Of a stretch of 64,000 nucleotides of DNA, positions 28,288 through 63,885 are shown in pieces; positions within the stretch are counted from its first letter, which is position 1; each line of letters starts with the position of its first letter. The stretch is from assembly GCF_003947415.1 (NCBI RefSeq), contig NZ_QHKL01000003.1:186001-250000 (forward strand), written 5' to 3'. A program made the translations under genes and the position numbers. The notes below the pieces were generated by a model. The model did not search any database and had not been told where the DNA came from. It was given only the letters and a program-made list of their open reading frames with translations. This DNA comes from Amycolatopsis sp. WAC 01376. GTDB lineage: Bacteria; Actinomycetota; Actinomycetes; Mycobacteriales; Pseudonocardiaceae.

Positions 28288-29089
28288 ACCCGTCCGCCGA
28301 TCCGTCCGAAGTGGACACCGCGTCGTGGCGAGGGCAGGACCTGCGGCTGGTACCGGCCGCGGCGACGGCCTGGCTCGGCACTCTTTCCGGGCTGCTGGGC
28401 GGCTGGTGGATCACGATGCTCTGCGGTGCGGTCGCCGTGGTGCTCGCGATCACCGCCGGTGTCCGTGCCCACCGGACGGCGTCCCGGTGGGTGGTTGGCC
28501 TCGGCGCGCTCGCGGTCCTCGGCGTGCTCACCGCCGGTCCGGTGGCGCTGCGGATCCGGGCCGCCGAGCACGACGACCTCCGTGCCGCCGCCGCACGGGG
28601 GAGCGAAGTCACCACGAAGGTGGTGGTCACCGAGCGGCCACGTCCGGTCCGCGGTGCCGGATACGCCGATCGCCGGGCAGGCACCCGCCTGGTGGTCATC
28701 GCCGCGACGGTGGACACCGTGGTGACGGGTGAGCGGGCGGTGGATTCGGCCGGCCGGATCCTCCTGCTCGCTCCCGCCGAGGGGTGGACGGACCTGCTGC
28801 CCGGGCAGCAGGTCACCGCCTCCGGGCGGCTCGCACCGGCGAAGGGGGCCGAGCTCACGGTCGCGGTCCTCTCGGTGCGAGGTCCGCCCTCGGCCCTCGG
28901 ACCGGCGCCCTGGTGGCAGCGAGCCGCGGAATCGCTGCGCACCGGGCTCCGGGAGCTGTGCGCCGTCCTCCCGGAGGAGCAGGCCGGTCTGGTGCCAGGA
29001 CTGGTCGTGGGGGACACGAGCACACTGTCCCCGAGGGTCGAACGCGAGTTCACGGACTCCGGCATGTCCCACCTGATGGCCGTGAGCGG
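28284..29089 (+). pseudogene. comEC: comEC, 5' part, interrupted by the prophage
   Basis: The first 268 codons of ComEC, the DNA-uptake channel: N-terminal membrane helices, then an OB-fold-like region (LLPGQQVTASGRL) and EEQAGLVPGLVVGDTS. The reading frame reaches HLMAVSG and then enters the element, where it runs 35 foreign codons to a stop at 29193. The rest of the gene resumes at 63867. The product lacks the pore (competence) domain and the metallo-beta-lactamase-like end. Precise excision would restore VSGGNVAIV without change, so this is a reversible split rather than decay. Confidence 0.93.
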
Positions 29090-29105
29090 AGACATTGTTC
29101 GTGCT
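29072..29105. other. attL attachment site (comEC/element junction)
   Basis: The GG core is at 29088-29089. To its left is comEC (GATGGCCGTGAGC), to its right the element arm AGACATTGTTCGT (29090-29102). That arm is the inverted partner, 11 of 13 bases, of ACGAACATTGTCA at 63854-63866 on the other end. The recombinase gene starts 28 bp further on, as is usual for serine integrases. Confidence 0.88.
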
Positions 29106-29116
29106 ACACATGGGGC

Positions 29117-30601
29117 ATGTCAAGTGGCATCGTGCGCGTCGGCCAGTACGGCCGGGCCTCCCACCTCAACGAACGCTCCGTCGACGACCAGCTGATCGAA
29201 AACGATGCCTGGGTCGCGCGGGAGCCCACGTGGCGCACGGTCTGGGTCAAGCGCGACGACGGCCGCTCCGCTTCGAAGTTCGCCACCAAGGCCCGGCCGG
29301 GCTGGGAACAGGCGATGACTTCGATCGAGGCCGGGGAGATCGACCTGTTGCTCTGCTGGGAGCTGAGTCGCGCTTCCCGTGACCGTCGAGTCTTCGCCGC
29401 ACTGTTCGCCGCGTGCGAGGAGAACGATGTCAAGATCGGCGTCGGCGGCCGGGTCTACGACCTCGCAGACGAAGAGGACGCGTTCCAGCTCGACCTGCAA
29501 GCCGCGCTTGCCGTTCGCGAGTCGGGCAAGACTCAACGCCGCGTGAAGCGCGGCAGCCGATCGTCGCTCGCCTCTGGCCGCCCGACCGGGAAACCCCCGT
29601 TCGGCTACCGCCCCATCCGCAGCCCCGAGACCGGGAAACTCGACAATTGGGTCGCTGACGAAGAAACGGCGCCGATCGTCCGGGAAATCGCGAAGCGCGC
29701 GCTGGCCGGGGAACCGCTGGCCACGATCGCCACCGACCTCAACGAGCGCGGCATCCGTACCCGCCCGACGAAGAAATTCCCTGAAGGCGCGCGATGGGAC
29801 GGCATCCGCGTTCGGCGCGTGGCGATCAACCCGACCTACGCCGCGTATCGCGTGCACAACAACGAGATCGCCACTGGCGTGGAGGCCAGCTGGCCGGCGA
29901 TTCTCGACGATGACGATGATCCCGGCGAGGCGCGCAAGAAGTCCCGCGATCTGCACGACCAGCTTGTCGCGAAGCTGTGCGACCCTCGCCGTAAATCGTA
30001 CGCGGACGGCAGCACAAAGCATCTGCTCGTGAACATCGCACGCTGCGGAAAGACTCTGGAAAACGGCGAGATGTGTGGTGCCCGGTGCCGCCGGATCAAG
30101 AACCGCGGAACGCCCTCGTATGCGTGCGAGAGGAAGTTCTGCGTCGCCCGCACACAAGGGCTGGTCGACACGTTCGTCACCGAGGTCGTCATCGGCCGCC
30201 TGGAGCGCGAGGATGCCCTGGAGTTGCTGGTCCCCGACGAGAGCGGACAGGCCAACGCCGCACGGCAGGAAGCTGCGGTTCTGCGGGCTCGCCTGGAGAA
30301 GTTTTATAGCCGGGGCGCGCGCGGCGAGATTTCGGACGAGGGCGTCGCCCGGATCGAGAAGGAGTTGATCCCGCTGATCCGGGCCGCTGAGCGGCGCGCT
30401 GAGCAGCACGCTGCCGCCGCGTCCCCTCTGCTCGCACAGATCGCCGGACCGGGCGCGCGTGAGCGTTGGGAGCGGCTGACCGTTCCGCAGCGGCGCGAGG
30501 TGATTCGCGTGCTCGGCGTGCCGGTGATCCTGCCGACTGGGCGCGGCCGGTGGCGCGATCCGGCGGCGCTGGACTTCTTGTGGCACCACGAGGCGAAGTA
30601 A
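29117..30601 (+). CDS. Large serine recombinase (integrase)
   Basis: 494 aa. Seen: N-terminal resolvase domain with catalytic S15 in VGQYGRASHLNERSVDDQ, and LLLCWELSRASRDRR with active-site arginines; a Recombinase domain (about residues 160-270; GKPPFGYRPI); a zinc-ribbon with cysteines in CGKTLENGEMCGARC and YACERKFC; then a coiled-coil stretch (about 385-450). It catalyses attP x attB integration at comEC and, with an accessory factor, excision. ATG 29117 is the first start after attL; the frame is also open upstream into comEC, which is not used. A terminator follows at 30620. Confidence 0.95.
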   Translation: MSSGIVRVGQYGRASHLNERSVDDQLIENDAWVAREPTWRTVWVKRDDGRSASKFATKARPGWEQAMTSIEAGEIDLLLCWELSRASRDRRVFAALFAACEENDVKIGVGGRVYDLADEEDAFQLDLQAALAVRESGKTQRRVKRGSRSSLASGRPTGKPPFGYRPIRSPETGKLDNWVADEETAPIVREIAKRALAGEPLATIATDLNERGIRTRPTKKFPEGARWDGIRVRRVAINPTYAAYRVHNNEIATGVEASWPAILDDDDDPGEARKKSRDLHDQLVAKLCDPRRKSYADGSTKHLLVNIARCGKTLENGEMCGARCRRIKNRGTPSYACERKFCVARTQGLVDTFVTEVVIGRLEREDALELLVPDESGQANAARQEAAVLRARLEKFYSRGARGEISDEGVARIEKELIPLIRAAERRAEQHAAAASPLLAQIAGPGARERWERLTVPQRREVIRVLGVPVILPTGRGRWRDPAALDFLWHHEAK

Positions 30602-30619
30602 CGATTTCGTCGCGACGGC

Positions 30620-31248: not shown

Positions 31249-31787
31249 CCAACGACAAGAACGCCGCCCCGGCTGGTATCCGGGGCGGCGGGGGACCAGC
31301 TCGCAGGAAAAGTAGCGGTCGTAACGAGTCTAGCGTGTTGCGCCTCGTTGATGGACCTCTCGACCGAGAAATTGAGGCAACAATGGCGCGCCACCCTGCC
31401 GGGAAACGTTCCAAGTGCATCGGCTGTCACCTGGAGCGAAACGGCAGCCAGATGCCGAGCTGGCACCACAGCTGCGCCCGCAACCTGCCTATCCGGCGTG
31501 TCCTCGCCGAAGACTTCCGTGCCCTCGTCGACAACGGCGGCGAAGGCTACGAACGGCCCCTCACTCACCACGAGCTGACCGACTTCGCCCTTCAAGACGT
31601 TCTCCACGGCCGCGCCCGCGACCTCATCGACTCATGGGCCGAGATCGAGCCCACCGAGGACTACGGGATACGCCGCCGGTACTGCGCCACCGACGCCGAC
31701 GACCCCGACGACTTCCCCCGCGTCGTCGTGCTCGACAACTGGACGTCGGTCAGCGGTGCTGCGGCACGCAAGTGGGTGACCCCGTGA
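31245..31787 (+). CDS. Zinc-finger-like protein of the replication operon
   Basis: 180 aa. Seen: a cysteine/histidine cluster CIGCHLERNGSQMPSWHHSC near residues 65-85 that could hold one zinc ion, then acidic C-terminal sequence. No family recognised. It overlaps both neighbours by 4 bp, directly before the SF3 helicase, so a DNA-binding or primase-accessory role in replication is plausible (inference). ATG 31384 is an alternative start. Confidence 0.65.
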   Translation: MTNDKNAAPAGIRGGGGPARRKSSGRNESSVLRLVDGPLDREIEATMARHPAGKRSKCIGCHLERNGSQMPSWHHSCARNLPIRRVLAEDFRALVDNGGEGYERPLTHHELTDFALQDVLHGRARDLIDSWAEIEPTEDYGIRRRYCATDADDPDDFPRVVVLDNWTSVSGAAARKWVTP

Positions 31788-33511
31788 CCACCATCGACCA
31801 GTGGCGGGCTGCCGCGAACGCCGTCACCGTGCCCGGATACGGCACCCTGGCCCGCCCCGGCGCACTCGACGACCTCGCCGACCGACTTCACCTGCTCGCC
31901 GCACAAGAGGATCAGCTTGACGGCTTCCGCCGGATGTTGGCGCACCTCGCTTACCACGAGATCCCCAACGACGACTGGGCCCGTTTCGCACCGCTGCATC
32001 CCGCCACCGCCGGGCGCAACCCCGCCACCGTGCTCACGATGATCGCCGGTCGCATGGAGGACCGGGCACTCACCGAACTGGGCCTCGCCCGACGCATCGC
32101 CGACCAACACGGCGCAGACCTCGCGTGGAGCAGGAGTCTCGGCGGCTGGGCCACGTGGGACGGGAAACGCTGGCGCACTGACAACGGCGACCACCTCGCG
32201 CAAGGGCTCGCCGTGCGCACTGTCGACGCGCTCGCCCGCGAAGTCGTCCGGGCCGAGGCGGCGGCCAAGGTCGCCGCCGAAGACGCCGCTCAGGCCGACG
32301 AGGTCACGAAGGAGGCGGCCGCTGCCAAGGTTAAGAGCGGCGAGGCTCACGCCAAGGCCGTGCGCAACTTCGCCCGTGACGCACAGAAGGCGCGCACGAT
32401 CGCCAACGCGCTTACCCTCGCCCGCTCCGAGGGGCTTGCCGTCGACGCCGAGCAGTTCGACGCCCGGCCCGAGCTGCTCACCGTCGCCAACGGCACCGTC
32501 GAACTGGGCGAGACCGCCACGGTGCGCGAGCACCGGCGCGCCGACCGGCTCACCCGCGTGGCCAAAGCGGCCTACGACCCCGACGCCACCTCGGCCGAGT
32601 GGGACGCCTTCGTCGCGCACGTCATCCCCGACGCCAAGGCGCGCGCCTATGCGCAAAAACTTATGGGGTACTCGCTCTTCGGGGAAAACAACAAGCGCAA
32701 ACTGATCTTCCTGATGGGGCCGACCAGCAGCGGAAAAAGCACTCTCCTGAAGGTCATCGGCAAAGTACTCGGTGACTATGCCGGTCCCTTCGCCATCAGC
32801 CTGTTCGCCGGAAAACAGACCGACGCCGCCAGGCCCGACATTCTCAAAGCACTGCCTCGGCGCATCATCCACGCCGACGACCCGCCAGAGCGCTGGGTCA
32901 TGTACGCCGACGAGATCAAGGCCTTGGCGGGCAACGTTAAACAAGAAGCGCGCCGGATGCGCTCCGACGAGTTCACTGAGCGGATTCCCGCATTCACCGG
33001 ATGGATCGCCTGCAACAAGCCGCCGACCATCGTGGGCGCCGACCAGGCACTCTGGACCCGCCTCATCGCCATCCCCTGCGGCGATACCATCGAAAAAGAA
33101 GACACGTCCAAAGAGGCGCGGCTGGGCGGCGAACACGGCTCAGCCGTCCTTGCCTGGCTCATCGAAGGCTGGAACCTCTATCAGGCCGAGGGAATCGATG
33201 ACATCCCCCACGCTGTTGTTGACGCAACTATGCGGCTTCGCGATAACCTGTCGCCCATTGACGTGTGGCTGTCCGAAGCCACCGAGAAAGACGCCGAATA
33301 CATCACGCCCATGGGCGACCTCTGGGACGCCTTTAATGACTGGTGCGACTACGCGCGCATCAAGGACGACAAACGGCTCACCCTGACAGCGTTCGGACGC
33401 GGTCTCACCGACCGCGGATTCACCACGCGTCAGGTGGGCCCGAAGCGCGTCAAGGCGCGCACCGGGCTACGTCTGGTCGCCACCGAACACGCGGGGGGCA
33501 CCGTCCTCTGA
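31784..33511 (+). CDS. SF3-type phage/plasmid DNA helicase (P4-alpha/D5-like)
   Basis: 575 aa. Seen: an N-terminal D5_N-like region (residues 90-290, with a charged Ala/Lys helix), P-loop GPTSSGKST near residue 311, Walker B-like RRIIHADDPPERW, a sensor ACNKPPT (motif C) and a C-terminal winged-helix-like end. These match the helicase half of phage/plasmid primase proteins of the P4 family; a clear primase active site was not seen. It should unwind the element's origin, for which the iteron palindrome directly downstream is the candidate. Confidence 0.88.
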   Translation: MTTIDQWRAAANAVTVPGYGTLARPGALDDLADRLHLLAAQEDQLDGFRRMLAHLAYHEIPNDDWARFAPLHPATAGRNPATVLTMIAGRMEDRALTELGLARRIADQHGADLAWSRSLGGWATWDGKRWRTDNGDHLAQGLAVRTVDALAREVVRAEAAAKVAAEDAAQADEVTKEAAAAKVKSGEAHAKAVRNFARDAQKARTIANALTLARSEGLAVDAEQFDARPELLTVANGTVELGETATVREHRRADRLTRVAKAAYDPDATSAEWDAFVAHVIPDAKARAYAQKLMGYSLFGENNKRKLIFLMGPTSSGKSTLLKVIGKVLGDYAGPFAISLFAGKQTDAARPDILKALPRRIIHADDPPERWVMYADEIKALAGNVKQEARRMRSDEFTERIPAFTGWIACNKPPTIVGADQALWTRLIAIPCGDTIEKEDTSKEARLGGEHGSAVLAWLIEGWNLYQAEGIDDIPHAVVDATMRLRDNLSPIDVWLSEATEKDAEYITPMGDLWDAFNDWCDYARIKDDKRLTLTAFGRGLTDRGFTTRQVGPKRVKARTGLRLVATEHAGGTVL

Positions 33512-33579
33512 CTGTTCCCAGCACATGCCCCCGAGATGCCGTCGATACGGCGTCCGGGGGCATTGTGCTGGGTGCGGGG

Positions 33580-33848
33580 TGAGCGGGTTTGAGCGGGTTG
33601 TGAGCGGGTTTGCCGCACAACCCGCTCACCCGGTTTCCGCAGGTCAGAGCACACTTCTGCGACCAGGTGAGCGGGTTGAGCGGGTTTTGAGTGGTTCAGG
33701 CCTATCGAGAATCTCCGGAGCGGGCTACTGCTTATGGGGCGCAAACGGCCGAAAACCCGCTCAACCCGCTCACCTCGCGTGCCTCCGTGCTCTGACCTGC
33801 GGAGACTTTGTGATCGTCGTCTGGGCAAACCCGCTCACAACCCGCTCA
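33580..33848. repeat. Iteron array in nested palindrome; candidate replication origin
   Basis: Ten perfect copies of TGAGCGGGTT: plus strand at 33580, 33590, 33601, 33668 and 33677; minus strand at 33619, 33754, 33763, 33828 and 33839 (left ends). They are arranged in three nested perfect inverted repeats sharing one centre near 33719-33720: 25 bp (33590-33614 with 33824-33848), 16 bp (33637-33652 with 33787-33802) and 24 bp (33665-33688 with 33752-33775). It starts 69 bp after the SF3 helicase gene; P4-type alpha proteins bind iterons beside their gene, so an origin is likely. No gene was found in 33512-33981. Confidence 0.75.
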
Positions 33849-33895
33849 GGCCCGCTCGCGTCGGCATGTGGCCGGCGGGGTTCGTGCGGTACTGC

Positions 33896-34660: not shown

Positions 34661-34680
34661 CTATGTCGGAGGTGGTGGCG

Positions 34681-35241
34681 ATGTCGAGCGGCGGAACGAA
34701 TCATCAAGCCTCCGGCGCCGTCGCGGCCAGGGCCGAACGCCAGGTGCGTGCCTTCGAGCTGTCGCTGGCGGGTCACAGTCTCCGCGCTGTCGCGGCGATC
34801 ATGTCCGCCGAGGGCGAGCGCATCTCGCACGAATCGGTGCGTGGCCTGATCTCGGCCGAAGCCATCGAGCGCGTCGCCGGTCCGGCCGAGGAGTACCGGG
34901 CTGTCCTGCTCGCGCAGCTGGAGGACGCCCGGCGCGTCGTGCTGGCGAAGCTGGAGCTGATGCCCGCGCCCGTCACCGCGGGCCGTGAAGGCGGTGTGGT
35001 CTATGACCCCGAGACGGGCGAGCCAGTTCGCGACCACTCGGCGCACCTCGCCGCCGTGGACCGGCTGCTGCGGATCAACGAGCGGGTCGCCAAGCTGACC
35101 GGCGCCGATATGGCGCAGAAGATCGAGGGCAACCTCAACGCCGTCGTGACCGAAGTGCCGGCCGACGTCGCCGAGTTGATGCGGCAGGCGCGGGAGAGGA
35201 ACGAGGCCCGGCGCGGCGAGATCAGCGGCGAGGCTGGTTAG
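34681..35241 (+). CDS. Putative terminase small subunit
   Basis: 186 aa. Seen: an N-terminal helix-turn-helix-like part (AFELSLAGHSLRAVAAIMS, then ERISHESVRGLISAEAIE) and a helical middle and C-terminus, as in small terminase subunits that recognise pac/cos DNA. ATG 34681 follows CGGAGGTGG; ATG 34663 in the same frame would overlap that site. It is 3.8 kb from the large subunit, separated by accessory genes, which makes the assignment less sure; a general phage DNA-binding protein is the alternative. Confidence 0.6.
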   Translation: MSSGGTNHQASGAVAARAERQVRAFELSLAGHSLRAVAAIMSAEGERISHESVRGLISAEAIERVAGPAEEYRAVLLAQLEDARRVVLAKLELMPAPVTAGREGGVVYDPETGEPVRDHSAHLAAVDRLLRINERVAKLTGADMAQKIEGNLNAVVTEVPADVAELMRQARERNEARRGEISGEAG

Positions 35242-37657: not shown

Positions 37658-37664
37658 CCAATAA

Positions 37665-45668: not shown

Positions 45669-45671
45669 GCC

Positions 45672-46456: not shown

Positions 46457-46513
46457 GGGGACTGACCACCAACCTTTCGGGCCACAAGGCCCTCAGTCCT
46501 CTTTGGAGTGATC

Positions 46514-47122: not shown

Positions 47123-47136
47123 TCCATCCCCAAGAC

Positions 47137-47192: not shown

Positions 47193-47218
47193 CCTTGTCC
47201 TGTCAGGAGGACCACCTC

Positions 47219-52141: not shown

Positions 52142-52152
52142 GAGGGGGCCTG

Positions 52153-53289: not shown

Positions 53290-53305
53290 CAGAACGGAGA
53301 AGTCG

Positions 53306-53548: not shown

Positions 53549-53551
53549 GCC

Positions 53552-54709
53552 GTGGCCGCCGCCGAGCGCGCGTACACAGCGCTGGCTTACGACACGGTCA
53601 CCGGCCGCGTCCTGTTCGAACTGGACCTGACCACTGATCCGGAATGGTCAGCCCGGATCAACGACGTCGGCGGCTGGAAGATCACCGTGCCGCTGCACGG
53701 TCTGGAGCGCACGGCGAAGGTGCGAGAGTGGTGCGTGCCGTGGCGGTTCTCCGTCGCGATCGTGCGCGGGCGAGGCGTTCCCTCTGACACGGTGTGCCAG
53801 GCCGGGCCGATCGTCCCGTATGCGCCGGACGACGACAGGCCCGTGCATACGGTGTCCGGCAAAGGTTTCTGGGAACTGCTGAATCGCCGGGCGCTGCACA
53901 ACAGGGCGTGGAACCCGGGCGCGAAGCGAATCACGGACGCCTCGGCTGACCTGACGATCAACGACAGCCTGCCGAACATCGCCCGGGAGATCGCCGACCA
54001 CGCCACGTCGATGACCTACCGAGCGGGCTCGGCGCTGCCGCTGGACCTGCCGACGCCGACCGCGACGGGAACGCACACGCGGACCTACCACGGCTACGAG
54101 ATGGCGTTCGCCGGTCAGCGACTCCAGGAGCTGACGCAGGTTGACGGCGGTCCTGACGTCCTGTTCCAGCCGTACCTGACGGTGATCGGCGGGCTCCGCT
54201 ACATCCGGCACCGGATGCTGATCGGGAACGCGTACCTCGTGCAGCCCGGCGTGCCGGTGTTGTTCGACTACCGGTCGAACCTGGTGAAGCTCACCATCGC
54301 CGGTGACGGCTCGAACCAGGCGAACACCTCCTTCGTCAAGGGCACCGGGAACGAGGCCGGTCAGCTCTACGGCTACGCCACCGACACGTCGCTGACTTCG
54401 GCGGGGTGGCCGATGCTGGACATGGTCGACTCCGGCCACACCTCGGCCTCCGAACAGGCCACATTGGACGGATGGGCCTCCGCCGATGTGGCGCTGTACA
54501 ACTCACAACCCGAGCAGTGGCAGGCCACAGTGCTGGCCGACACGGAACCGCGGCTCGGCTCGTACCTGCCCGGCCACTTCGCCGACTATTCGGTGAAAGA
54601 CCACCACTGGCTGCGCAATGGCAAGTACTCCTACCGCATTCTTGGCGTGTCGAATGCCTCCGAGCGGGACAAGGTGCTGCACCAGCTCCAAGCGGTGAGG
54701 GGGTCCTGA
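53552..54709 (+). CDS. Minor tail protein, Gp37-like (tail hub)
   Basis: 385 aa. Seen: YDTVTGRVLFELDLTTDPEW at the start, VSGKGFWELLNRRAL, and TLDGWASADVALYNSQPEQW with a late YRILGVS, typical of the ReqiPepy6 Gp37-like minor tail family. It likely forms part of the tail-tip hub that opens on infection. Starts GTG, 3 bp after the small protein, and abuts the next gene without a gap. Confidence 0.8.
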   Translation: MAAAERAYTALAYDTVTGRVLFELDLTTDPEWSARINDVGGWKITVPLHGLERTAKVREWCVPWRFSVAIVRGRGVPSDTVCQAGPIVPYAPDDDRPVHTVSGKGFWELLNRRALHNRAWNPGAKRITDASADLTINDSLPNIAREIADHATSMTYRAGSALPLDLPTPTATGTHTRTYHGYEMAFAGQRLQELTQVDGGPDVLFQPYLTVIGGLRYIRHRMLIGNAYLVQPGVPVLFDYRSNLVKLTIAGDGSNQANTSFVKGTGNEAGQLYGYATDTSLTSAGWPMLDMVDSGHTSASEQATLDGWASADVALYNSQPEQWQATVLADTEPRLGSYLPGHFADYSVKDHHWLRNGKYSYRILGVSNASERDKVLHQLQAVRGS

Positions 54710-55399
54710 GTGGTCGCCAACCAGCCGATCGAGCGCCCGAAATCGCTGGACTACCTGATCAACCAGCTCCGAGACCTCCAGCAGACCGTGGACGAGCTGA
54801 CCCGGCAGTCGAAGTTCCCTTTCGTCGTCTCACACGGCGGGGTCGTCGACTTCGCCGTGGTGCCCCGGGCCAGCGCCGACGGCGCGGTGGTGCAGGTCTT
54901 CGACGGCACCGGAAAGCTGGTGCTCGGATCGGACGCTGACGTGGGCTACGGGCTCGCGCAGCCGTTCATCCAGGTGCCGATGTACCCGACGAACCCCGGC
55001 TTGATCTTCAACAGCGGTGGTTCGTTCGTCTCCTATTACACCGGGCAGGCGCAGCAACTCAACAGCTGCTTCCTCGCCCAGTGGCGCATGAACAACTCGT
55101 GGGGCGGTGCGGGAGCGGCCTCGGTCGTCGAGAGCTACGTGAAGATCACCGACTCGGTAACCGGGTGGGACTGGACCAGCCCGACCGTGACGGCGCCTGC
55201 GTCTACGACGACCGCACCCGGCGTGCTGACCACCTGTGGCCCATACGCCGTGCAGGTGCCCGACACCTCGATCGGCAACTCCATCGGCGTCGACATCTTT
55301 TCCCGGGTCGTGTCCGGCGGCGCCAGCTCGGCCGTCGCGGTCACCCCCGTCTCGATGCTGGGCACGTCGAAAGCGTTCGCGGCGTCCTGGCTCACCTGA
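54710..55399 (+). CDS. Minor tail protein
   Basis: 229 aa. Seen: an N-terminal helix (IEQ/YLINQLRDLQQTVDELTRQ), a coiled-coil for trimerisation, then a beta-rich Gly/Ser/Thr domain without cysteine clusters, like a short fibre. No enzyme motif. Next in line are the lysis genes. Confidence 0.68.
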   Translation: MVANQPIERPKSLDYLINQLRDLQQTVDELTRQSKFPFVVSHGGVVDFAVVPRASADGAVVQVFDGTGKLVLGSDADVGYGLAQPFIQVPMYPTNPGLIFNSGGSFVSYYTGQAQQLNSCFLAQWRMNNSWGGAGAASVVESYVKITDSVTGWDWTSPTVTAPASTTTAPGVLTTCGPYAVQVPDTSIGNSIGVDIFSRVVSGGASSAVAVTPVSMLGTSKAFAASWLT

Positions 55400-55418: not shown

Positions 55419-55811
55419 GTGATCACGAGTACCCGAAATCCGTTCGAGACACTGATCGTCGCCGCGTTCGGCCTGTACTGCGCGGTGGCACTGTCGATGT
55501 TCGACAAGGTCGCCACCACGACCCTGCGCGGCTACCCGCCGCCATTCGGCCACGTGTTCCTCGCCATCGGACTCATCACGTGCTCGGTGGCACTGACCGG
55601 AATCATCCGGGCCGCCACCGTGCGCGGCGTGCTGCTCGAACGCGCCGGGCTCACCGGTTTGGCCGGCGTCGGCTTCGCCTACGCGTGCTGGGGCCTCGGC
55701 ACGACCGGCGTGAGGGCGTTGGCGTTCTGCCTGTTCCTGCTTGCGATGGCCATCGCCGCAGCGTGGCGGGCGCGGCAAATCTCGAGTGCGAGAAAGGCGG
55801 CGCTGCGGTGA
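55419..55811 (+). CDS. Membrane protein, putative holin
   Basis: 130 aa with four hydrophobic segments: LIVAAFGLYCAVALSMF, VFLAIGLITCSVALTGII, GLTGLAGVGFAYACWGL and ALAFCLFLLAMAIAAAW, and a basic C-terminus. AAAGGGGGTGG precedes GTG 55419. Its place between the tail genes and the endolysin suggests a holin or holin partner. Overlaps the next gene by 4 bp. Confidence 0.7.
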   Translation: MITSTRNPFETLIVAAFGLYCAVALSMFDKVATTTLRGYPPPFGHVFLAIGLITCSVALTGIIRAATVRGVLLERAGLTGLAGVGFAYACWGLGTTGVRALAFCLFLLAMAIAAAWRARQISSARKAALR

Positions 55812-56143
55812 ACGAACTTCTGACCTGGCTCGGCGGCGCGGGCGGTGTAGGCGCGGTCGCGAAGGCCATCTTCGATCTCGTCAAGAGCCGGGCTGATGCC
55901 CGGAAGGTCAACGCCGACTCCGCTGCCGTGCTGATCCAGACCGCCGCCGAGTCCAATAAGGACCTCGGTGACGACCTGCGGGAAGTTCGCGCTGAACTGC
56001 GCGAGGTCAGGACCACGCAGCGCCGTCACGACGACGTGCTGCGCGTGCATCACCGCTGGGACGAACAGGTCGTCGACCAGCTTCGTCAGCTGGGCGGCAC
56101 GATCGTCGACCCGCCGCCGCTCTACCTGCCGGAGGTGCCGTGA
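55808..56143 (+). CDS. DUF2746-like holin-associated coiled-coil protein
   Basis: 111 aa. Seen: a short hydrophobic N-terminus (LLTWLGGAGGVGAVAKAIFDLV) and a long coiled coil (DLREVRAELREVRTTQRRHD and on). Such proteins often sit beside endolysin genes of actinophages as second holins or spanin-like factors. It overlaps the endolysin start by one base. Confidence 0.6.
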   Translation: MNELLTWLGGAGGVGAVAKAIFDLVKSRADARKVNADSAAVLIQTAAESNKDLGDDLREVRAELREVRTTQRRHDDVLRVHHRWDEQVVDQLRQLGGTIVDPPPLYLPEVP

Positions 56144-56856
56144 TGGCGCAGTGGCCTTTCCCTTGGTACATCGCTGAATCGCTGGAGGTACTCAGGCGTC
56201 AGCTGAACGCGCTCGCGCCGGACCGGAGTACCGCGAGCGACGGCGGGATCGGCGACTCTGCGCACCAAGGCCGGGCCTCCGAACACAACCCGAACAACTA
56301 CCGGCGTTGGGACGGCGCCCGCCAGGTGTGCGCCCGGGACTTCACCCACGATCTCGGCGGCGGCCTCGATTGCAACTGGCTGGCCGCCGCGCTGATCGCG
56401 TCGGGTGACAACCGGATCAGGTACATCATCTGGTGGGACCGCATCTGGACGCCCGGCGTGGGGTGGAAGCCGTATGAGGGCGAGAACGATCACAGGAAGC
56501 ACCTTCACCTCTCGGTGAAGGCCGGGGCCATCGGCGACCTCGCAGCAGCGTGGCATCTCGGTCCCGCAGGATCAGACCAGGAGGACGAATTGACCCCGGA
56601 CGAAAAGCTCATGCTCAAGCGGATCTACGGCCAGCTCACGGGCACCGAGGACGTCAAGGCCGGGTTCCCTGGCTTCCCATCCAAGAAGTACCCGCACATC
56701 AAGCTCACGGCGGTCGACTTCCTCCGCGCGTCGAACAAGGACGCCATCGACTTCAAGCAGGAACACGACAGCCGGTTCGCCGCGGTCGAGAAGGCGCAGG
56801 CCGAACTGGCGGCGAAACTCGACCGGGTCCTGGCCGCGCTCGCCGTGAAGGCGTGA
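56143..56856 (+). CDS. Endolysin, M15-type peptidase-like
   Basis: 237 aa. Seen: SAHQGRASEHNPNNY, CARDFTHD and DHRKHLHLSV, a His/Asp/His zinc set resembling phage peptidase M15-like domains (residues 20-135); the rest is a linker and a helical C-terminal part (YGQLTGTEDVKAG, then a coiled coil) perhaps for wall binding. It should cut peptidoglycan peptides at the end of the lytic cycle. No signal peptide, so holin-dependent. Confidence 0.78.
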   Translation: MAQWPFPWYIAESLEVLRRQLNALAPDRSTASDGGIGDSAHQGRASEHNPNNYRRWDGARQVCARDFTHDLGGGLDCNWLAAALIASGDNRIRYIIWWDRIWTPGVGWKPYEGENDHRKHLHLSVKAGAIGDLAAAWHLGPAGSDQEDELTPDEKLMLKRIYGQLTGTEDVKAGFPGFPSKKYPHIKLTAVDFLRASNKDAIDFKQEHDSRFAAVEKAQAELAAKLDRVLAALAVKA

Positions 56857-57176: not shown

Positions 57177-58355
57177 CTATTTCACTCGCATCGGCAAGAA
57201 CGCGTCGATGACAGCTGTGTTGGCGATATAGCCTTTAGGGGTGGCCACGACGAGTCCGAGTTCTTCGAGGCGGTGTAGGTCGCGGCTCAGGGTTTTCGGT
57301 CCACGGGTGGCGTACATTCCCGCTATCTCTGCGGTGACCGTGGGAATCTTCCGTTTCGGAATGGCCTGATCCGGAGGAAGCGCTAGGACCACCCCACAGC
57401 GTCGTTTGTATGTTTCCCCTGTGGGCTCGCTGCGGAAAGTCTGGTGGACGTAATTGACCCAGGCAGTGTGGCGTTGCATGAGCTGGACGTCGTGGATCTG
57501 CTCGCGGAGCATGTCGACATAGCCTGCTGCGGAGTAGGAGATGAACCCATCGACGTCGCCGTGGCGGGAGGCGTTGGACAGCTTCTGGTAGTAGCGGGAC
57601 CTAGTACGGTTGTAGTGGTCCGAGAGCAGGTTGCTGGACACCCAAGGCACGATTCCGCAATGGGCGAGGATGGCGCACTCGACCATCCGGGCAGTGCGGC
57701 CGTTGCCGTCGCCGAAGGGGTGGATCCAAGCGATGTAGAGGTGCGCAAGGGTGGCAGCGTAAAACGCTTGGGTGAAGCGGAGATCTTCCGCATTGTTGGT
57801 GTCGTTGACCACGTCGAGCAACTGTGCGATCCAGTCGCATAACTGGTCAATCAAGAACTCGACGTCAGCTGGAGGTGCACCCCGGTAGTTTCCCGCCGCG
57901 ACACGTTCGACGGTGAACTCGCCGGGAACAACGTGGGGTTCGACTTCGAGACCGTCGAGCACGATCTTGTTCTGTGCTTTGATCCACTCTGCGGTGATCG
58001 CCAGGCTTTCACCGCGGCGGGATGCCTGATCGATGAGCTGCAAACCATGCAGCACGTTCCGGATCTCCTGCTCCAGATACTGCTGAGTTGGCGGCAGCTC
58101 CTTGCGGCCCTCCAGGATGTCGTGGACTTCGTCCTCTCGGAGAGTGTTGCCCTCAATCGCGGCTGTGGCGACGGCGCCCTTCACGAGATAGACGCCAGCG
58201 AGCTTCTTGGCGAGAGAGGGCTGCAAGGGCGTCCCCGCCAGATGGCGGCATTTGGAGTACGCCTCACCAAGCTTCGCGCTTGTCGCGTTGAACCGCACCT
58301 GGTACTTGAAGGTGATCCACGGATGCGATGATTCATACTCTCTACCTGCGGACAT
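57177..58355 (-). CDS. Fic family AMPylation/NMP-transferase protein
   Basis: 392 aa. Seen: Fic/DOC_N-type N-terminus, the full active motif HPFGDGNGRTAR (H212), and upstream TAAIEGN (T64-N70), which fits the inhibitory [S/T]xxxE[G/N] helix, so it is a self-inhibited class II Fic. A winged-helix end (YATRGPKTLSRDLHRLEELG) resembles those of Fic regulators/antitoxin-like proteins. It may modify a host or phage protein in the lysogen. It ends a minus-strand chain of small overlapping genes, and has its own promoter. Confidence 0.9.
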   Translation of the reverse strand: MSAGREYESSHPWITFKYQVRFNATSAKLGEAYSKCRHLAGTPLQPSLAKKLAGVYLVKGAVATAAIEGNTLREDEVHDILEGRKELPPTQQYLEQEIRNVLHGLQLIDQASRRGESLAITAEWIKAQNKIVLDGLEVEPHVVPGEFTVERVAAGNYRGAPPADVEFLIDQLCDWIAQLLDVVNDTNNAEDLRFTQAFYAATLAHLYIAWIHPFGDGNGRTARMVECAILAHCGIVPWVSSNLLSDHYNRTRSRYYQKLSNASRHGDVDGFISYSAAGYVDMLREQIHDVQLMQRHTAWVNYVHQTFRSEPTGETYKRRCGVVLALPPDQAIPKRKIPTVTAEIAGMYATRGPKTLSRDLHRLEELGLVVATPKGYIANTAVIDAFLPMRVK

Positions 58356-59271: not shown

Positions 59272-60033
59272 ATGATGGATCGCACGAGTGGAGTGCCAGC
59301 GTTCCGGCAAGTCGCGACCGATCTTCGGAAGAAGATCCACGCCGGTGAGTACCCACCTGGCGCCAAGCTCCCGAGTGAACGCGAACTGATCGATACCTAC
59401 GGCGTATCTCGACCGACCGTCCGCGAAGCGGTCAACCTGCTCCGCTCCGAAGGCGTGGTCAACGTCGAGCATGGACGCGGCGTGTTCGTCCGTCCGCCGT
59501 CGAATATCCAGCGTCTGGCGCGTTCGCGGTTGTCGCGTGCCGCACGCGAACGGAACGAAGGCGCCTTCCTGGCGGAGGCCGCGGCAAAGGGCTTCGCTGC
59601 TTCGAGCAACGTCAAGGTCCGCTTCGAGCGCGCCGATGAGCGAGCGGCCGAATTCCTCCGGGTGGACGCCGGAACCGAACTGACCGTGAGAGATCGGGTG
59701 ATGCGGGCCGATGGGCTGGTTGCTCAGCTCGCGGTGTCGCGCCTACCTCGTGAACTGACGCGCGGCACCCTGATCGAGAAGGTCAACACCGGCGAAGGTG
59801 GCGCCTACGCACGCCTCGAAGAGGCCGGTCACACCATCGGCTCATTCGCCGAACACGTTGGCGCGCGAATGCCGAAGCCGGACGAAGTGACGCTTCTCCA
59901 GCTGTCGGGCGGCGTGCCGGTCATGACCATCACGCGGGTCGCGTACAGCACGGACGGCAGGCCGCTGGAGATGAACGACATCGTCCTTCCGGCGAACTTG
60001 TACGAGCTGACCTACGAATGGCCTGCCGAATGA
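59272..60033 (+). CDS. GntR/HutC-type transcriptional regulator
   Basis: 253 aa. Seen: N-terminal winged helix (FRQVATDLRKKIHAGEY, then LPSERELIDTYGVSRPTVREA) and a C-terminal UTRA ligand domain (about residues 95-250). In Streptomyces plasmids and AICEs, GntR proteins of this class (KorA/KorSA/TraR type) repress transfer and replication genes; a similar role over the Fic and transfer operons is inferred. ATG 59272 follows GTGGAG. Confidence 0.85.
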   Translation: MMDRTSGVPAFRQVATDLRKKIHAGEYPPGAKLPSERELIDTYGVSRPTVREAVNLLRSEGVVNVEHGRGVFVRPPSNIQRLARSRLSRAARERNEGAFLAEAAAKGFAASSNVKVRFERADERAAEFLRVDAGTELTVRDRVMRADGLVAQLAVSRLPRELTRGTLIEKVNTGEGGAYARLEEAGHTIGSFAEHVGARMPKPDEVTLLQLSGGVPVMTITRVAYSTDGRPLEMNDIVLPANLYELTYEWPAE

Positions 60034-60085: not shown

Positions 60086-60436
60086 TCAGTCGAGGTCGTC
60101 CAGCGCGTCCTCGATCGCTTCCACGAGTGCCTCGATCTGCGGGAGGTTCTCCTTCGAGAACCAGAAGGCGTTGGTCGGAGCCTTCGAGGACATTGCGGGC
60201 ATGATGCTGGGCAGATCGGGCGGTTCCCCGGACAGACGGAACGTGAGCATGCCGCCGGGGTCCAGCCTGGACGGGCGCCTGACCTCGATGGCCTGAATCT
60301 TGCGTAGACGGAAGCGGTGCACCAGCTCGGCCCGGGAGACCCAGCTTCCGGTGACGATCGTGATCGTCACCGCCTTGCCGTCGAACTTGATGCTCCGGTA
60401 CTTCCCCAAGATCTCGTGGATCGCTGTGTCCGGCAT
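60086..60436 (-). CDS. DUF4429-like protein
   Basis: 116 aa. Seen: YRSIKFDGKAVTITI, HRFRLRKIQAIEV and GMLTFRLSG, matching the pleckstrin-like DUF4429 fold seen in actinobacteria; the acidic end (EALVEAIEDALDDLD) may be a peptide tail. Its function is unknown. It stands alone, on the same strand as the transfer operon behind it. Confidence 0.6.
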   Translation of the reverse strand: MPDTAIHEILGKYRSIKFDGKAVTITIVTGSWVSRAELVHRFRLRKIQAIEVRRPSRLDPGGMLTFRLSGEPPDLPSIMPAMSSKAPTNAFWFSKENLPQIEALVEAIEDALDDLD

Positions 60437-60545
60437 GTCGTTGCTCCCTCGTCCTCAAACCTGGTCACTAGCTCGGTCCGACCTGGCCAGCTGTTACAGA
60501 TTCAGCCGTTCACCTGAGGCTTCGCGTCACTTTCTGTGATCTCTG

Positions 60546-60615
60546 AACGCTCACCGAGCGCTCAACGCTCGCCCTCGCCTGCGCATATGAGGCCGAGCGT
60601 GAGCGTTGAGCGCTC
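60546..60615. repeat. GAGCG-rich inverted repeats after the TraB-like gene; candidate clt
   Basis: GAGCGCTCAACGCTC (60556-60570) and GAGCGTTGAGCGCTC (60601-60615) are perfect complements with a 30-bp gap. Octamers of the type (T/C)GAGCG(T/C)T occur about six times in 75 bp. Streptomyces TraB proteins bind 8-bp repeats (clt) near traB, so this may be the transfer site. The stop of the translocase gene lies 11 bp beyond. Confidence 0.45.
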
Positions 60616-60625
60616 TGCGAGCTGA

Positions 60626-62491
60626 TCACTCAGCGTGGACCCACTTTCCCCGGCCCTCGCGCCGCGCCCGGCCCTCGGCCTCCAGTTCGGTGAGCAGCCG
60701 CCGAAGCGTCGAGTCGGCGAAACCGGTGGCTTCACGCAGCTGTGCTGGGCTCACGGGGGCCGCGCTCAGCAGACCGGCGACCTGGTCGCGCTTGCTGGCC
60801 ACGCGCTGCACCGGCACCGTCGGCATGGCCAGCGGCACCACGCCCTCTTGCTGGATCCGCTCCGCCTCGGCGTGCACCGGCTCGCCGTCGGCGCCGAGCA
60901 GCCTCGCCGTCGACCCGCCATCCAGCAGCCGGGCGCCGGACAGCCCGGCGAGGAACCGCGCTCGCTCCGCCGGGGTCACGAAGAACCCCTTCGACTGACG
61001 CGGGACATCGTGCTCCTGGTCGTACAGAAGGAAAACGCCCGTCGGTAGCCCCACGGACGTGTATCCGCGGCCGCGCAGCTCACCCCACGACGTCTTCGAC
61101 TGCTGCGAGTCCAACCGGAACCCGGCCATCCCGAGCTGAGCACGCAGCTCCGTCGATCCCATATCGGTCTTCGTCGAGTTCTGCGCCGCCAGCACGAGCG
61201 TCGTCTTCGTCTTCCGCGCCCGCTTCGCGATCCGGCCCACCAGCTTCACCACCTGTTCGCCGCCCTCGGCGACCAGATCAGGGAACTCCTCCAGGATCGC
61301 CACCAGCCACGGCACCTCCGGCGACACCTCCAGGACGTCCGGCCCGCCGCCACCGGCCGCGCGCTTGCCGTCGGCCAGAAGCCCCTCGCGGTACTGCACG
61401 ACCTGCTCCAGCCCCACCAGCAGCCGGACGGCGTCCTCGGTCGTCGTCGCCAACGGGGCCGCCAGCGCGGACTCCCAGGCGCCGAGCGTGGCCCCGGCCG
61501 CCATGTCCGCTCCGATGACAGCGGCGTCCACACTGGACAGCAGCCACACCAGCAGCGACTCCAGGAACGCCGACTTTCCCGAGCCGTTCTGTCCGACCAC
61601 GGCCAGGTGCCGCAGCTGGAACAGCTGGTCCCGGCCGTCGTCGAGCACGCCCATCGGCAGCAGCGACGACTCGGCCAGCGAGTGCGGGCGAGGGTTCGCG
61701 ATCAGCGGGTGCTCGATCCGCGCTTGCCACGGGTCGCGCGGCAGGATGCGCACCGCCACCTGCCGCTCGGTGCGGCCGGGGGAGATGGTGACCGCGCCCT
61801 TTCGCAGGTTGAAGACCGAGCCGACCGCCGGTGCCCGGTAGGCGACGTCCTCGATCGTCTTGCCCGAGGCCAGCTTCACCGAGAGCACTGTGCCGCCCTT
61901 CGTCCCGGCGATGGTCTCCACGCCGGTCGGCAGCACCTTCGAATCTTTGAACGCCAGGACGTCCTCGGTGACGACCGGCCAGCGGCGGGCGAACCGGTTA
62001 CCTCGGCCGGTGCGCCGGATGCGGCGGTGCCACCACCAGGGCGCGGCCAGGAACAGGAACAGCAGCCCACCCAGCTGCCAGATGCCCGGCGTGGAGAGTC
62101 CGCGCGCGCCCAGAATCGCCACCCAGCCGCCACCGACCGCGAGCAGCACCGCCAGGTATGCCCGCTCGACCTCCCGGTCCAGCACACCCTTGCGTCCCTC
62201 GTCGAAACCGTCCGGCACGAAGAACGCCAGGACACGCTGGAGAGGCTGGGACAACCGGGCGCCCCACACCTGGACGGCGACGCCGGCCACCGGGCCGCCG
62301 ATGGCGGGCACCAGCCACCAGGCGCCGGGCACCAGGAACAGCACCAGTCCGGCGATGGTGAGCCCGGCGGCGACCCAGACCGGTGCCAGGGCGGCCCGGT
62401 GACGCCAGGCTCGCCGCACCAGCCACCCGGCTAACCACCTGGCGGCTTTCCCGATCAGCGACCGCCGCCGGGTGCGGTACCGGCGGCTCAC
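60626..62491 (-). CDS. TraB-like FtsK/SpoIIIE DNA translocase
   Basis: 621 aa. Seen: about four N-terminal membrane helices (APVWVAAGLTIAGLVLFLV, then GGLLFLFLAAPWWW), P-loop GQNGSGKSA near residue 300, Walker B-like VPWLVAILEEFPDL, and a C-terminal winged helix (PAQLREATGFADSTLRRLL). In Streptomyces TraB this winged helix recognises clt and the motor moves double-stranded DNA between hyphae. It overlaps the DUF2637-like gene by 4 bp. Such a gene is unexpected in a siphophage. Confidence 0.85.
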   Translation of the reverse strand: MSRRYRTRRRSLIGKAARWLAGWLVRRAWRHRAALAPVWVAAGLTIAGLVLFLVPGAWWLVPAIGGPVAGVAVQVWGARLSQPLQRVLAFFVPDGFDEGRKGVLDREVERAYLAVLLAVGGGWVAILGARGLSTPGIWQLGGLLFLFLAAPWWWHRRIRRTGRGNRFARRWPVVTEDVLAFKDSKVLPTGVETIAGTKGGTVLSVKLASGKTIEDVAYRAPAVGSVFNLRKGAVTISPGRTERQVAVRILPRDPWQARIEHPLIANPRPHSLAESSLLPMGVLDDGRDQLFQLRHLAVVGQNGSGKSAFLESLLVWLLSSVDAAVIGADMAAGATLGAWESALAAPLATTTEDAVRLLVGLEQVVQYREGLLADGKRAAGGGGPDVLEVSPEVPWLVAILEEFPDLVAEGGEQVVKLVGRIAKRARKTKTTLVLAAQNSTKTDMGSTELRAQLGMAGFRLDSQQSKTSWGELRGRGYTSVGLPTGVFLLYDQEHDVPRQSKGFFVTPAERARFLAGLSGARLLDGGSTARLLGADGEPVHAEAERIQQEGVVPLAMPTVPVQRVASKRDQVAGLLSAAPVSPAQLREATGFADSTLRRLLTELEAEGRARREGRGKWVHAE

Positions 62492-63168
62492 CGGGCGTCC
62501 TGGCGAACGACCGCCAGCCGGGCAGGCGGCGCCTGGCGCAGCTCGTCGAGCACCTGGCGGACCTCGTACTCGCTGGCGTCGAGCTGGCGGGCGATGGCGA
62601 CGCGACCAGGCGGGCGCTGACCCGCGGCTTCGGCCTCCGCCAGCATCTCGGCCACCCGAGTGTGCAGCGGGGGCACGTCCTGGTGAGCGTTCTCGCTGGT
62701 CACCAGGTTTTCACCAGGCTCCTGGTGAGCGTCACCAGCCTCCTGGTGCGGCTCCTGGCAGGCTGGTGACTCCTCGCCAGATGCCTCGGCCGGGCTGGCG
62801 TCGACCTGGCGGACGAGCGACATCACCAGCTCGAAGGCGAGCGCGAACGCCAGCGGCGGCCACGCGGCCACCAGGCGACTCGCCAGATCCGGACCGGCCG
62901 CCGCCACGTTCGCCACCAACGACACCAGGATGCCGACCACGACCGCCAGCCACGCCAGCCACGGCGCCCGCCCGCCATCGCGGCGGGCGCGCAGGATCGC
63001 CAGGCTGGCGACCACCAGGAGACCGTCGACCGACAGCGGGCTCAGCCAGGACAGCCAGTCCTCGCCGTGCTTCGCCGCCAGCGTCCGCATGTGCGTGTAC
63101 GAGGCGACGGCGGCGACAACCGCCACCAGGCCGCCGAAGGCGATGCCGCTCGTGCGGTAACCGTTCAC
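62488..63168 (-). CDS. DUF2637-like membrane protein of the transfer operon
   Basis: 226 aa. Seen: four membrane helices (GIAFGGLVAVVAAVASYTHM, LLVVASLAILRAR, WLAWLAVVVGILVSLVANV, and one near AFALAFELVMSLV) and a cytoplasmic end with a helix-turn-helix (RVAIARQLDASEYEVRQVL). These match the DUF2637 type that often accompanies TraB/FtsK genes on actinomycete plasmids and AICEs. Function probably in transfer or spread. Overlaps both neighbours by 4 bp. Confidence 0.75.
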   Translation of the reverse strand: MNGYRTSGIAFGGLVAVVAAVASYTHMRTLAAKHGEDWLSWLSPLSVDGLLVVASLAILRARRDGGRAPWLAWLAVVVGILVSLVANVAAAGPDLASRLVAAWPPLAFALAFELVMSLVRQVDASPAEASGEESPACQEPHQEAGDAHQEPGENLVTSENAHQDVPPLHTRVAEMLAEAEAAGQRPPGRVAIARQLDASEYEVRQVLDELRQAPPARLAVVRQDAR

Positions 63169-63623
63169 GCGGACCTCACCCGGCAGGCGAGGGTGTGCGT
63201 GTTCTCCAGCGGCACCGGCTCGGACTGGGCGATGACCCGCCCGTCGAAGGTGACCGTGCAGCTGGCCGAGTCGTCGCCGATCGGCGCGGCCACGTACACG
63301 ACGAGGTCGAGCTGAGCGGACGACTTCGCCGTCTCGAACCGCGCCTTGTCACGCCCGGCGGCCGGGAGATCGATCGGGCCGGTGTCGCCGAAGACCTCGC
63401 CGAGCACCCGGAACTGAGTGCCGGGCGCGCCGGTGATCGAGATGACGACCTCGTGCTGGGGCGCGGGCGACGGCGCGGTGGTGCTCGAAGCGACTGTCGG
63501 CTGCGGGACGGGGCGGCTGGAGACGGAGAGCGCGCCGGACGCCCACAGCGCCAGCAACGCCAGGACGACGATGAGGACGACGAGACCGAGGAGAGCAGCG
63601 ACGACGGCCGCCGCCCGCTTCAT
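63165..63623 (-). CDS. MmpS-like anchored protein
   Basis: 152 aa. Seen: one N-terminal membrane helix (VVAALLGLVVLIVVLALLALW), a Pro/Ser/Thr linker, and an outside beta domain (VVISITGAPGTQFRVLGEV, then CTVTFDGRVIAQ and ACRVRSA with two cysteines) resembling the MmpS/transport-accessory fold. Hedge: similarity judged by eye only. An unusual member of a transfer operon. Confidence 0.6.
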   Translation of the reverse strand: MKRAAAVVAALLGLVVLIVVLALLALWASGALSVSSRPVPQPTVASSTTAPSPAPQHEVVISITGAPGTQFRVLGEVFGDTGPIDLPAAGRDKARFETAKSSAQLDLVVYVAAPIGDDSASCTVTFDGRVIAQSEPVPLENTHTLACRVRSA

Positions 63624-63811
63624 CGGGCATCCCCCGCCCGGTTGGCGAGCGCGACCACGACGCGGCCGACGAGCCAGCCGACGCCCATACCCGCGACGAT
63701 GCCGCCCAGCGCGGCGAGCGCGGGCAGTACTCCGAGGAAGACCGGCACGATCACCGCGACGGCGCTGACCAGCACCGCGATCGGCGTGACGTGCCACATG
63801 AACCCTGACAT
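63620..63811 (-). CDS. Small two-helix membrane protein, Spd-like
   Basis: 63 aa; hydrophobic segments VTPIAVLVSAVAVIVPVFL and LAALGGIVAGMGVGWLVG. First gene of the transfer operon; GGGAGC precedes ATG 63811. It overlaps the next gene by 4 bp. Small membrane proteins (Spd) near traB help plasmid spread in mycelia; this role is an inference from position. Confidence 0.6.
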   Translation of the reverse strand: MSGFMWHVTPIAVLVSAVAVIVPVFLGVLPALAALGGIVAGMGVGWLVGRVVVALANRAGDAR

Positions 63812-63849
63812 TCAAGCTCCCGGGGTCGGGGTCCGTCAGGTCTCATGTG

Positions 63850-63885
63850 CCTGACGAACATTGTCAGGTGGGAACGTGGCGATCG
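63850..63885. other. attR attachment site (element/comEC junction)
   Basis: The GG core is at 63867-63868. On its left is the element arm ACGAACATTGTCA (63854-63866), on its right comEC (TGGGAACGTGGCG). Combined with attL it defines attP and attB. GTCAGG also occurs at 63835-63840 and CCTGAC at 63850-63855, possible accessory sites for recombinase or excisionase. Confidence 0.88.

Follow-up and report, generated by a model that had tools for sequence, protein, structure and literature searches.

Phage particle genes and genes for conjugal transfer are found together on the Streptomyces plasmid-phage pZL12/phiZL12, which is said to have been described by Zhong et al. in 2010 and is reportedly a plasmid of about 90 kb. 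Passages of three papers indicate that transfer of pZL12 needs a major tra gene together with adjacent genes (PMC4487206, PMC5431353 and PMC3583192), and PhiNon1, an element that both replicates itself and integrates, is likened to pZL12 in PMC5431353; a term search of that text returned no mention of FtsK or TraB. The actinomycete integrative and conjugative elements (AICEs) are also close to the locus studied here, and parts of PMC3218068 state that an AICE survey set aside fragments with two or fewer of the int, rep and tra genes, some of which were taken for prophages. A term search of the main text of a 2023 survey of actinobacterial prophages (PMC10023795) returned no FtsK, conjug- or TraB, and among titles and abstract openings, with few subscription journals included, we recognized no integrated phage with an AICE-type transfer cassette, which is weak evidence of absence. 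Our analysis concerns a window of 64,000 nucleotides (G000:C22:186001-250000) from Amycolatopsis sp. WAC 01376, whose 9.07-Mb genome is in 30 contigs, and a 34.8-kb element within it that contains both the genes of a siphophage and a leftward operon of the transfer type. This combination is real and recurrent, and we lean towards reading the element, from its predicted genes and sites, as a temperate siphophage in which one cassette serves both integration and conjugation.

The element occupies positions 29088-63868 of the window and splits the host gene comEC. The 5′ part of comEC (28284-29089) is broken off after GTGAGCGG, and the remainder of the gene starts from 63867 with GGTGGGAACGTGGCG (also read as restarting at GGTGGGAACGTG). 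Joining the two flanks in silico restores comEC exactly, as a single open ComEC frame; a relative, G157, has an empty comEC site with the uninterrupted sequence GCCGTGAGCGGTGGGAACGTGGCG; and a 164-aa junction probe gave one continuous match in 78 of 80 same-genus genomes, being split only in the genome under study and in one other, G376. These findings therefore define the element as 29088-63868, the borders given in the initial annotation, and they bear out the initial annotation in placing a phage and a TraB-like operon inside one att-bounded unit, with the structural and translocase frames open. When the ends are rejoined, the resulting attP is, by inspection, near-palindromic around GG. 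The attB site lies within a gene of the competence family, and both comEC insertions found among the 80 genomes have this integrase type; a section of PMC12637031 deals with com genes that mobile elements disrupt in pneumococci. An Rfam scan of 29000-64000 gave no match.

The phage half of the element has the gene content of a temperate siphophage, with the virion genes in one rightward operon (39040-56856, with TerL, portal, scaffold, major capsid, tape measure and tail families in open frames), and with an integrase and an att site in a host gene that is empty in relatives. In the right part, where the frames are also open, Pfam upholds the initial annotation of a leftward TraB-like operon with a DUF2637-like gene and a GntR regulator, and the small membrane proteins noted there look hydrophobic on inspection and match neither Pfam nor NCBIfam. 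The N-terminal segments of the predicted translocase are hydrophobic by inspection; the protein also has an FtsK motor domain and, at its C terminus, a winged helix. Both of the gene families by which PMC3218068 recognizes the integration and transfer modules of AICEs are present, i.e., the integrase is over the cut-off for PF07508 (PF00589 or PF07508 being accepted), and the translocase scores 34.5 bits against FtsK_SpoIIIE (PF01580), for which the cut-off is 24. A profile of five translocases compared with solved structures matched FtsK (1e-23) and the DNA translocase coupling protein 6o1w (1.4e-17).

The second split comEC gene, in G376, contains an insert of approximately 30 kb at the same point and in the opposite orientation. 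The serine integrase of this insert is 62% identical to that of the window over 475 aa, and its translocase is 45% identical over 604 aa (47% in a pairwise alignment), with the Walker-type motifs and the C terminus conserved, and with the FtsK-like motor (PF01580) and the C-terminal winged helix (PF17782) over cut-off in both proteins. A DUF2637-like gene is also present (phmmer 9e-8), and in the circular form of both elements the order is translocase, DUF2637, attP, integrase. The phage genes differ: the G376 terminase matches phrog_9 and that of the window phrog_38, the tape measure proteins match phrog_305 and phrog_10780, respectively, and blastn at 1e-3 between the two elements aligned nothing except the integrase and a stretch that covers the 3′ part of the translocase gene and the block downstream of it. 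Since the integrase, the translocase, the DUF2637-like gene and the 3′ block are common to elements with different terminase families, int-attP-tra-clt, where clt is a candidate transfer site, looks like one exchangeable cassette that has been combined with two different phages, which we consider the simplest reading of the two sequences. Read in integrase orientation, the attP core is CC in G376 and GG in the window; the polarity rule of serine integrases would give a CC core for the opposite orientation. With the same attB in opposite orientations and CC vs GG, the G376 junctions (L145 and L146) and those of the window make a natural pair for serine integrase polarity. A translocase match at 1e-10 was found in three of the 80 same-genus genomes, i.e., these two and G374 (weak, 29-30% identity).

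A block of non-coding DNA directly 3′ of the translocase gene, which was absent from the initial account, adds weight to the predicted transfer function. In both the window and G376, this block starts directly after the translocase stop codon with GAGCGCTCAACGCTC, followed by the core CATAYGCGCAGGCG; the first arm then recurs in inverted form, as a perfect copy in the window and a partial one in G376. The two blocks are identical in 91 of 122 columns (75%), including 70 of the first 88, and their alignment scores 54, with none of 1000 dinucleotide shuffles above 28 and none of 1464 other G376 windows above 26. The aligned translocase codons are approximately 59% identical (differences of 0.39, 0.36 and 0.49 at the three codon positions), and the non-coding block is therefore better conserved than the coding sequence. 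As described in passages of PMC3583192, the experimentally required clt of plasmid pWTY27 is formed by the last 16 bp of traA and the adjoining 159 bp, with 7-bp direct repeats and inverted repeats that are bound by TraA; the position of this proven clt corresponds to that of the window block, which we class as clt-like, i.e., as a candidate clt. Repeats also follow the translocase gene elsewhere. In the phage records G306, G308 and G325, a 6-mer occurs in 8, 8 and 10 copies within 170 nt, a count that no other window of the respective locus reaches (0 of 485, 0 of 559 and 0 of 559); dense TGCTCA/TGCTCG arrays lie directly after the translocase gene at L034 2427-2600 and L054 5374-5550, in phage records of 76.6 and 70.9 kb. 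Four related loci outside known phages (G002, G180, G048 and G043) have repeats or GC-rich palindromes in this position, with word counts as high in 1, 228, 3 and 7 of 518 windows, respectively. A GC-rich core word follows the translocase in 7 of 9 family loci (L006-L014) and in the window, and in 8 of 39 rows overall, these core words having been picked after the sequences were seen.

Using tblastn at 1e-5, the window translocase gave no match in the phage collection or in plasmids; after this result the translocases of relatives served as queries instead, and a profile was built from the window, G237, G330, G306 and G229 proteins. We placed 13 chromosomal prophages in the TerL group (G000, which is the genome under study, G277, G229, G237, G289 and G327-G334), and kept five further loci out of this count for being partial, more distant or on a contig of a metagenome-assembled genome (L113-L117; one archaeal, on such a contig, and four from Rhodococcus or Rhodococcoides, of which two are partial). 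A translocase was seen at none of these five loci. A translocase-like gene lies within approximately 21 kb of TerL in 6 of the 13 prophages (G000, G229, G237, G328, G329 and G330) and 35 kb away in G277, where it may not belong to the prophage; for G327 and G331-G334, 10 kb on each side of TerL was covered. Among 43 viral loci, the stretch covered includes a translocase in four (G306, G308, G317, which is weak, and G325). The search proposed initially, for elements sharing both terL and the translocase, thus returned ten TerL-group phages or phage-plasmids besides the window, including phiM2, with matches of uneven strength: several are weak, and a PF01580 match over cut-off near TerL is limited to G229, G317 and G330. 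G237 and G306 match the translocase profile by construction, because both helped to build it, and profile-independent support for them is weak (no Pfam match and NCBIfam TraB 2.4e-4 for G237; PF01580 0.017 and blastp identity of 26% over 251 aa for G306).

The prophage closest in layout is G237, with a serine integrase at the left end, structural genes, and then a translocase and a DUF2637 gene (PF10935 1.1e-9) on the minus strand. At its right end is a host gene, which we take to be phosphatase-like from a motif. The first bases of this gene resemble the left border by eye, so that the att site is probably located there, giving the same end-to-end layout in a different host gene. In G229, a Rep_1 gene (PF01446 2.5e-15) is present beside the translocase gene; the G229 loci L095 (18582-19886) and L088 (1321-2475) have Rep_1 and translocase genes beside a TerL-group phage operon. 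Outside known phages, we identified nine family loci with related translocases, and four of these (G002, G048, G180 and G043), covered in a 20-kb context, gave no match to phage structural reference proteins within it. G002 and G180 have Pfam matches to a serine recombinase and GntR, G048 has a weak recombinase match, and G043 has a tyrosine integrase and DUF2637; G043/G076, G048/G002 and G308/G325 are pairs of close or near-identical relatives and not independent. In a tree of 27 of the 28 intended rows (phiM2 dropped out), in which several branches are long and placement is unsure, the phage label takes five parsimony changes, at least three of them on well-supported branches, with gains and losses not distinguished. 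The window groups with G376 (100/100), G306 with plasmid pSLUN2 (94/85), G330 with Mischief19 (98/97), and G229 with three uncharacterized chromosomal genes (100/100).

Replication is the part of the element for which the initial annotation needs correction. A helicase/iteron region is present as stated, since we find a D5_N primase-helicase and, shortly after it, ten copies of GAGCGGGTT at 33581-33847 (267 bp), five per strand, with 11 copies in the whole window where 0.95 is expected. The description of this replication as AICE-type does not hold, as the primase-helicase is over the cut-off for the P4 family (TIGR01613), and D5_N is its only Pfam match over cut-off, with neither RepAM (PF12307) nor Prim-Pol (PF09250) among its matches. 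These two families, and the ParA and ParB families, were also absent from the 26 of 42 predicted element proteins that the Pfam scans covered. By its predicted domains, the element is thus one that replicates by a P4-type D5 primase-helicase with iterons and not by a known AICE Rep, RepAM and Prim-Pol being those compared. Phage-plasmids are maintained as plasmids and in many cases have partition genes; here iterons and a D5 primase are present, the 26 scanned proteins include no ParA or ParB family, and in the genome under study the element is integrated. No iteron cluster of the GAGCGGGTT kind was found in the G376 element. The iterons and the clt-like block have the word TGAGCG in common.

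The coordinates of all features are listed in Table 1. Searches of viral contigs with integrase patterns found no relative. The 34663..35241 product is possibly the small terminase subunit, judging from the position of its homologues, and its PHROG match is named RNase E. Shortly before TerL, at 36438-38353, are two glycosyltransferase-like genes with homologues at the same place in L024, L028 and L029. The genes at 44896..47976 have homologues in identical order in G237 and G330. The holin-like and endolysin-like proteins gave no Pfam match, and the latter has what we presume to be an M15-like motif. The GntR-UTRA protein is a possible tra repressor; exact 10-mers of its upstream region were sought in 63801-63868 and none was found.

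Table 1. Positions, strands and supporting evidence of features of the comEC-integrated element (window coordinates)
Feature	Position	Strand	Evidence
attL core dinucleotide GG inside comEC, element start	29088..29089	.	split comEC, joined flanks, G157 empty site
Large serine recombinase (integrase), first gene inside attL	29117..30601	+	PF00239 3.9e-15; PF07508 4.5e-10; phrog_95 integrase 2.4e-70; 62% identical to G376 integrase
D5_N/P4-family primase-helicase (replication)	31772..33511	+	PF08706 3.8e-27; TIGR01613 153.4 bits (cut-off 108.7); phrog_1156 DNA primase 2.1e-99
Iteron cluster, probable replication origin	33574..33857	.	ten GAGCGGGTT copies, five per strand
Possible small terminase subunit	34663..35241	+	phmmer homologues shortly before TerL in G229, G237, G330, G306; phrog_645 3.9e-13
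Terminase large subunit (TerL)	39040..40545	+	phrog_38 2.7e-67; 48% to Streptomyces phage Dryad and relatives
Portal protein	40545..42065	+	phrog_104 8.9e-44; PF05133 9.7e-8
Head maturation or minor capsid protein	42049..43200	+	phrog_595 3.1e-5
Scaffold	43349..43780	+	phrog_194 8.1e-14
Major capsid protein	43890..44831	+	phrog_10 2.8e-11; PF05065 8.6e-11
Head-tail adaptor, stopper, tail terminator, major tail protein, tail assembly chaperones	44896..47976	+	phrog_22288, phrog_2175; names mostly from order and homologues
Tape measure protein, 1089 aa	47995..51264	+	phrog_10780 6.9e-28
Distal tail and minor tail proteins	51266..55399	+	phrog_5577, phrog_33, phrog_3398, phrog_1885, phrog_9849
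Holin-like membrane protein and endolysin-like protein	55763..56856	+	roles from position; phrog_9090 membrane protein; phrog_32486 unknown function
Fic/SoFic-family protein (cargo)	57177..58355	-	PF02661 1.1e-14; PADLOC SoFic 9.4e-48
GntR-UTRA regulator	59272..60033	+	PF00392, PF07702
DUF4429-like small protein	60086..60436	-	PF14472 0.0013, below cut-off
clt-like block directly 3′ of translocase gene	60540..60625	-	15-bp perfect inverted repeat GAGCGCTCAACGCTC around CATATGCGCAGGCG
TraB/FtsK-like DNA translocase, 597 aa	60626..62419	-	PF01580 1.8e-8; PF17782 2.6e-6
DUF2637 protein, SpdB-like by position only	62488..63168	-	PF10935 9.2e-22; phrog_733 2.9e-24, labelled excisionase
Two small proteins at operon start, 152 and 63 aa	63165..63811	-	open reading frames; hydrophobic by inspection
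attR core GG, element end, comEC restart	63867..63868	.	joined flanks, G157 empty site

In the circular prophage, the integrase, attP, the DUF2637/TraB-like operon and the clt-like block are contiguous, and the main virion families are present. If the integration cassette of this siphophage is also its conjugation cassette, the prophage would excise and replicate from the iterons, and a TraB-type ring, attached to the clt-like repeats by the winged helix at its C terminus, would drive double-stranded circles of the prophage into neighboring cells or compartments. The DUF2637 protein and the small hydrophobic proteins may assist this transfer, the GntR protein may limit expression, and virion production would be a second, lytic route. 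More tentatively, and at somewhat short of even chances, we propose a class of conjugative phages, in which an int-attP-tra-clt module circulates among unrelated temperate phages and gives them a virion-independent route for double-stranded DNA, with the post-traB site also serving as a so far undescribed clt of related integrative elements. The confidence we attach to these proposals is due mainly to the G376 element and the conserved block.

The main rival explanation is that the translocase works only inside one mycelium, spreading or segregating the excised prophage across septa with no delivery to a new recipient. According to parts of PMC4170104, the pSVH1 membrane protein SpdB2, which is linked to spreading within the mycelium, is a DNA-binding protein and has TraB as an interaction partner, and the DUF2637 protein could by its position be an SpdB-like partner; the absence of ParA and ParB families from the scanned proteins fits such a role as well. 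We nevertheless regard a purely intramycelial function as unlikely, since passages of PMC4170104 and PMC3218068 report that Streptomyces plasmids need TraB as the single plasmid protein for conjugation, and since a clt-like block is present. A second explanation, which we judge improbable, is that the FtsK-like protein serves the phage in host takeover or in the handling of DNA and has no part in transfer, and that the 3′ block is a transcription terminator or an operator. PHROGs place FtsK-like proteins under host takeover, the G330 translocase has matches in 69 of 50,697 phage records (49 of these being Mycobacterium phages), and the block folds strongly; however, the block, its central part included, is conserved above the adjacent coding sequence, a terminator scan that allows short loops only called none at the block, and on plasmid pSLUN2 the order of GntR, small genes, DUF2637 and a translocase match that lacks annotation is similar to that of the window. 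A prophage adjacent to, or nested with, an AICE remnant would fit the position of the tra operon on the opposite strand, and AICE accretion at one site is described in part of PMC9513070. This reading is very improbable and largely refuted, since a single att pair encloses both modules, which rejects accretion, comEC is exactly restored, and the translocase and DUF2637-like genes are likewise inside the element in G376 and probably also in G237.

Several points weigh against the reading of the integration cassette as a conjugation cassette. The translocase match to the plasmid_TraB model NF041214 (3.1e-15) is significant, but at 55.7 bits it is far under the curated cut-off of 800, and we therefore call the protein TraB-like and not a curated TraB; its AlphaFold model is poor (pLDDT 50, pTM 0.41). 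The clt-like block is a strong hairpin (fold z -5.95; in the G376 stretch z is -2.64, a value that 2 of 200 shuffles reach) and might act as a terminator. Word counts of the blocks are not extreme, being as high in 207 of 1708 windows for the window element and in 605 of 951 for G376, and the same is true after the translocase genes of G328 (92 of 558 windows as high), G329 (560 of 560), G330 (381 of 559), G237 (490 of 490), G229 (35 of 80) and G180 (228 of 518). The dN/dS comparison is uninformative (dN 0.53, dS 0.82) and is not used as evidence. The initial annotation named close relatives without the right operon as a finding that would speak against it. The nearest structural relatives are L024 (IMG 2911868137; 95% in TerL) and L025 (79%), the latter with what by eye is a tyrosine-integrase-like gene. 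Neither record includes a translocase, and both end at or shortly after the lysis genes; this counts against tight coupling and is not decisive. According to passages of PMC3583192, tra is not sufficient for theta-type plasmids (e.g., SCP2 and pZL12), which depend on adjacent genes as well. In mycobacteriophage Benedict, a DUF2637-like protein is encoded opposite a serine integrase with no FtsK among the annotated neighbors. Large phages such as Gilgamesh and Baka have genes annotated as FtsK-like, and we know of no conjugation in them. As a separate observation, the Benedict gene (L156 2242-4378) is divergent from the integrase and labelled excisionase, a label for which we saw no support. 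DUF2637 alone was rejected as proof of conjugation, as it has matches in 174 phage records, all of them Mycobacterium phages or Fromanvirus.

If transfer works, one element would have two routes of spread with different limits, by virions and by cell contact, the line between phages and AICEs would be blurred, and a prophage could move without lysis. The candidate transfer site directly after the translocase gene and the presence of one cassette in two phages make the idea of dual spread testable.

Like AICEs (e.g., pSAM2), the element has a site-specific integrase adjoining att and an FtsK/TraB-type gene, and the related elements G002 and G180 (GntR) and G043 (DUF2637) have the same neighbor genes; unlike them, its replication protein has no RepAM or Prim-Pol domain and it carries virion genes, so that the likeness to AICEs is limited to the transfer and integration half. 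The closest isolated phages by TerL are the Streptomyces phages PHTowN, Lizz and Dryad (48%), with matches also to Mulchroom (41%) and the satellite MiniFlayer (39%), and, unlike the window element, Dryad, MiniFlayer and OscarSo gave no translocase match. FtsK-like translocases are annotated in the Streptomyces phages Gilgamesh and Mischief19 and in Mycobacterium phages such as Baka, which resemble the element in encoding an FtsK-type ATPase and differ in that it is annotated as a translocase only. The Streptomonospora litoralis plasmid phiM2 is similar in TerL (44%), in its annotated capsid, tape measure and DUF2637 genes on a 90-kb circle, and in a translocase profile match (4730-5530, 3.6e-17) to a protein with no FtsK Pfam match, and differs in being extrachromosomal with ParB-family genes. 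The initial annotation was thus right in describing a phage and a TraB-like operon in one unit, and went too far in implying, besides the AICE replication half, that the combination is unique: phage plus tra is not unprecedented, given pZL12 and the translocases annotated in other phages. Compared by description, pZL12/phiZL12 has phage particle genes and conjugal transfer genes on one replicon, as is predicted for the element, and it is a plasmid, whereas the element is a 35-kb prophage integrated in comEC.

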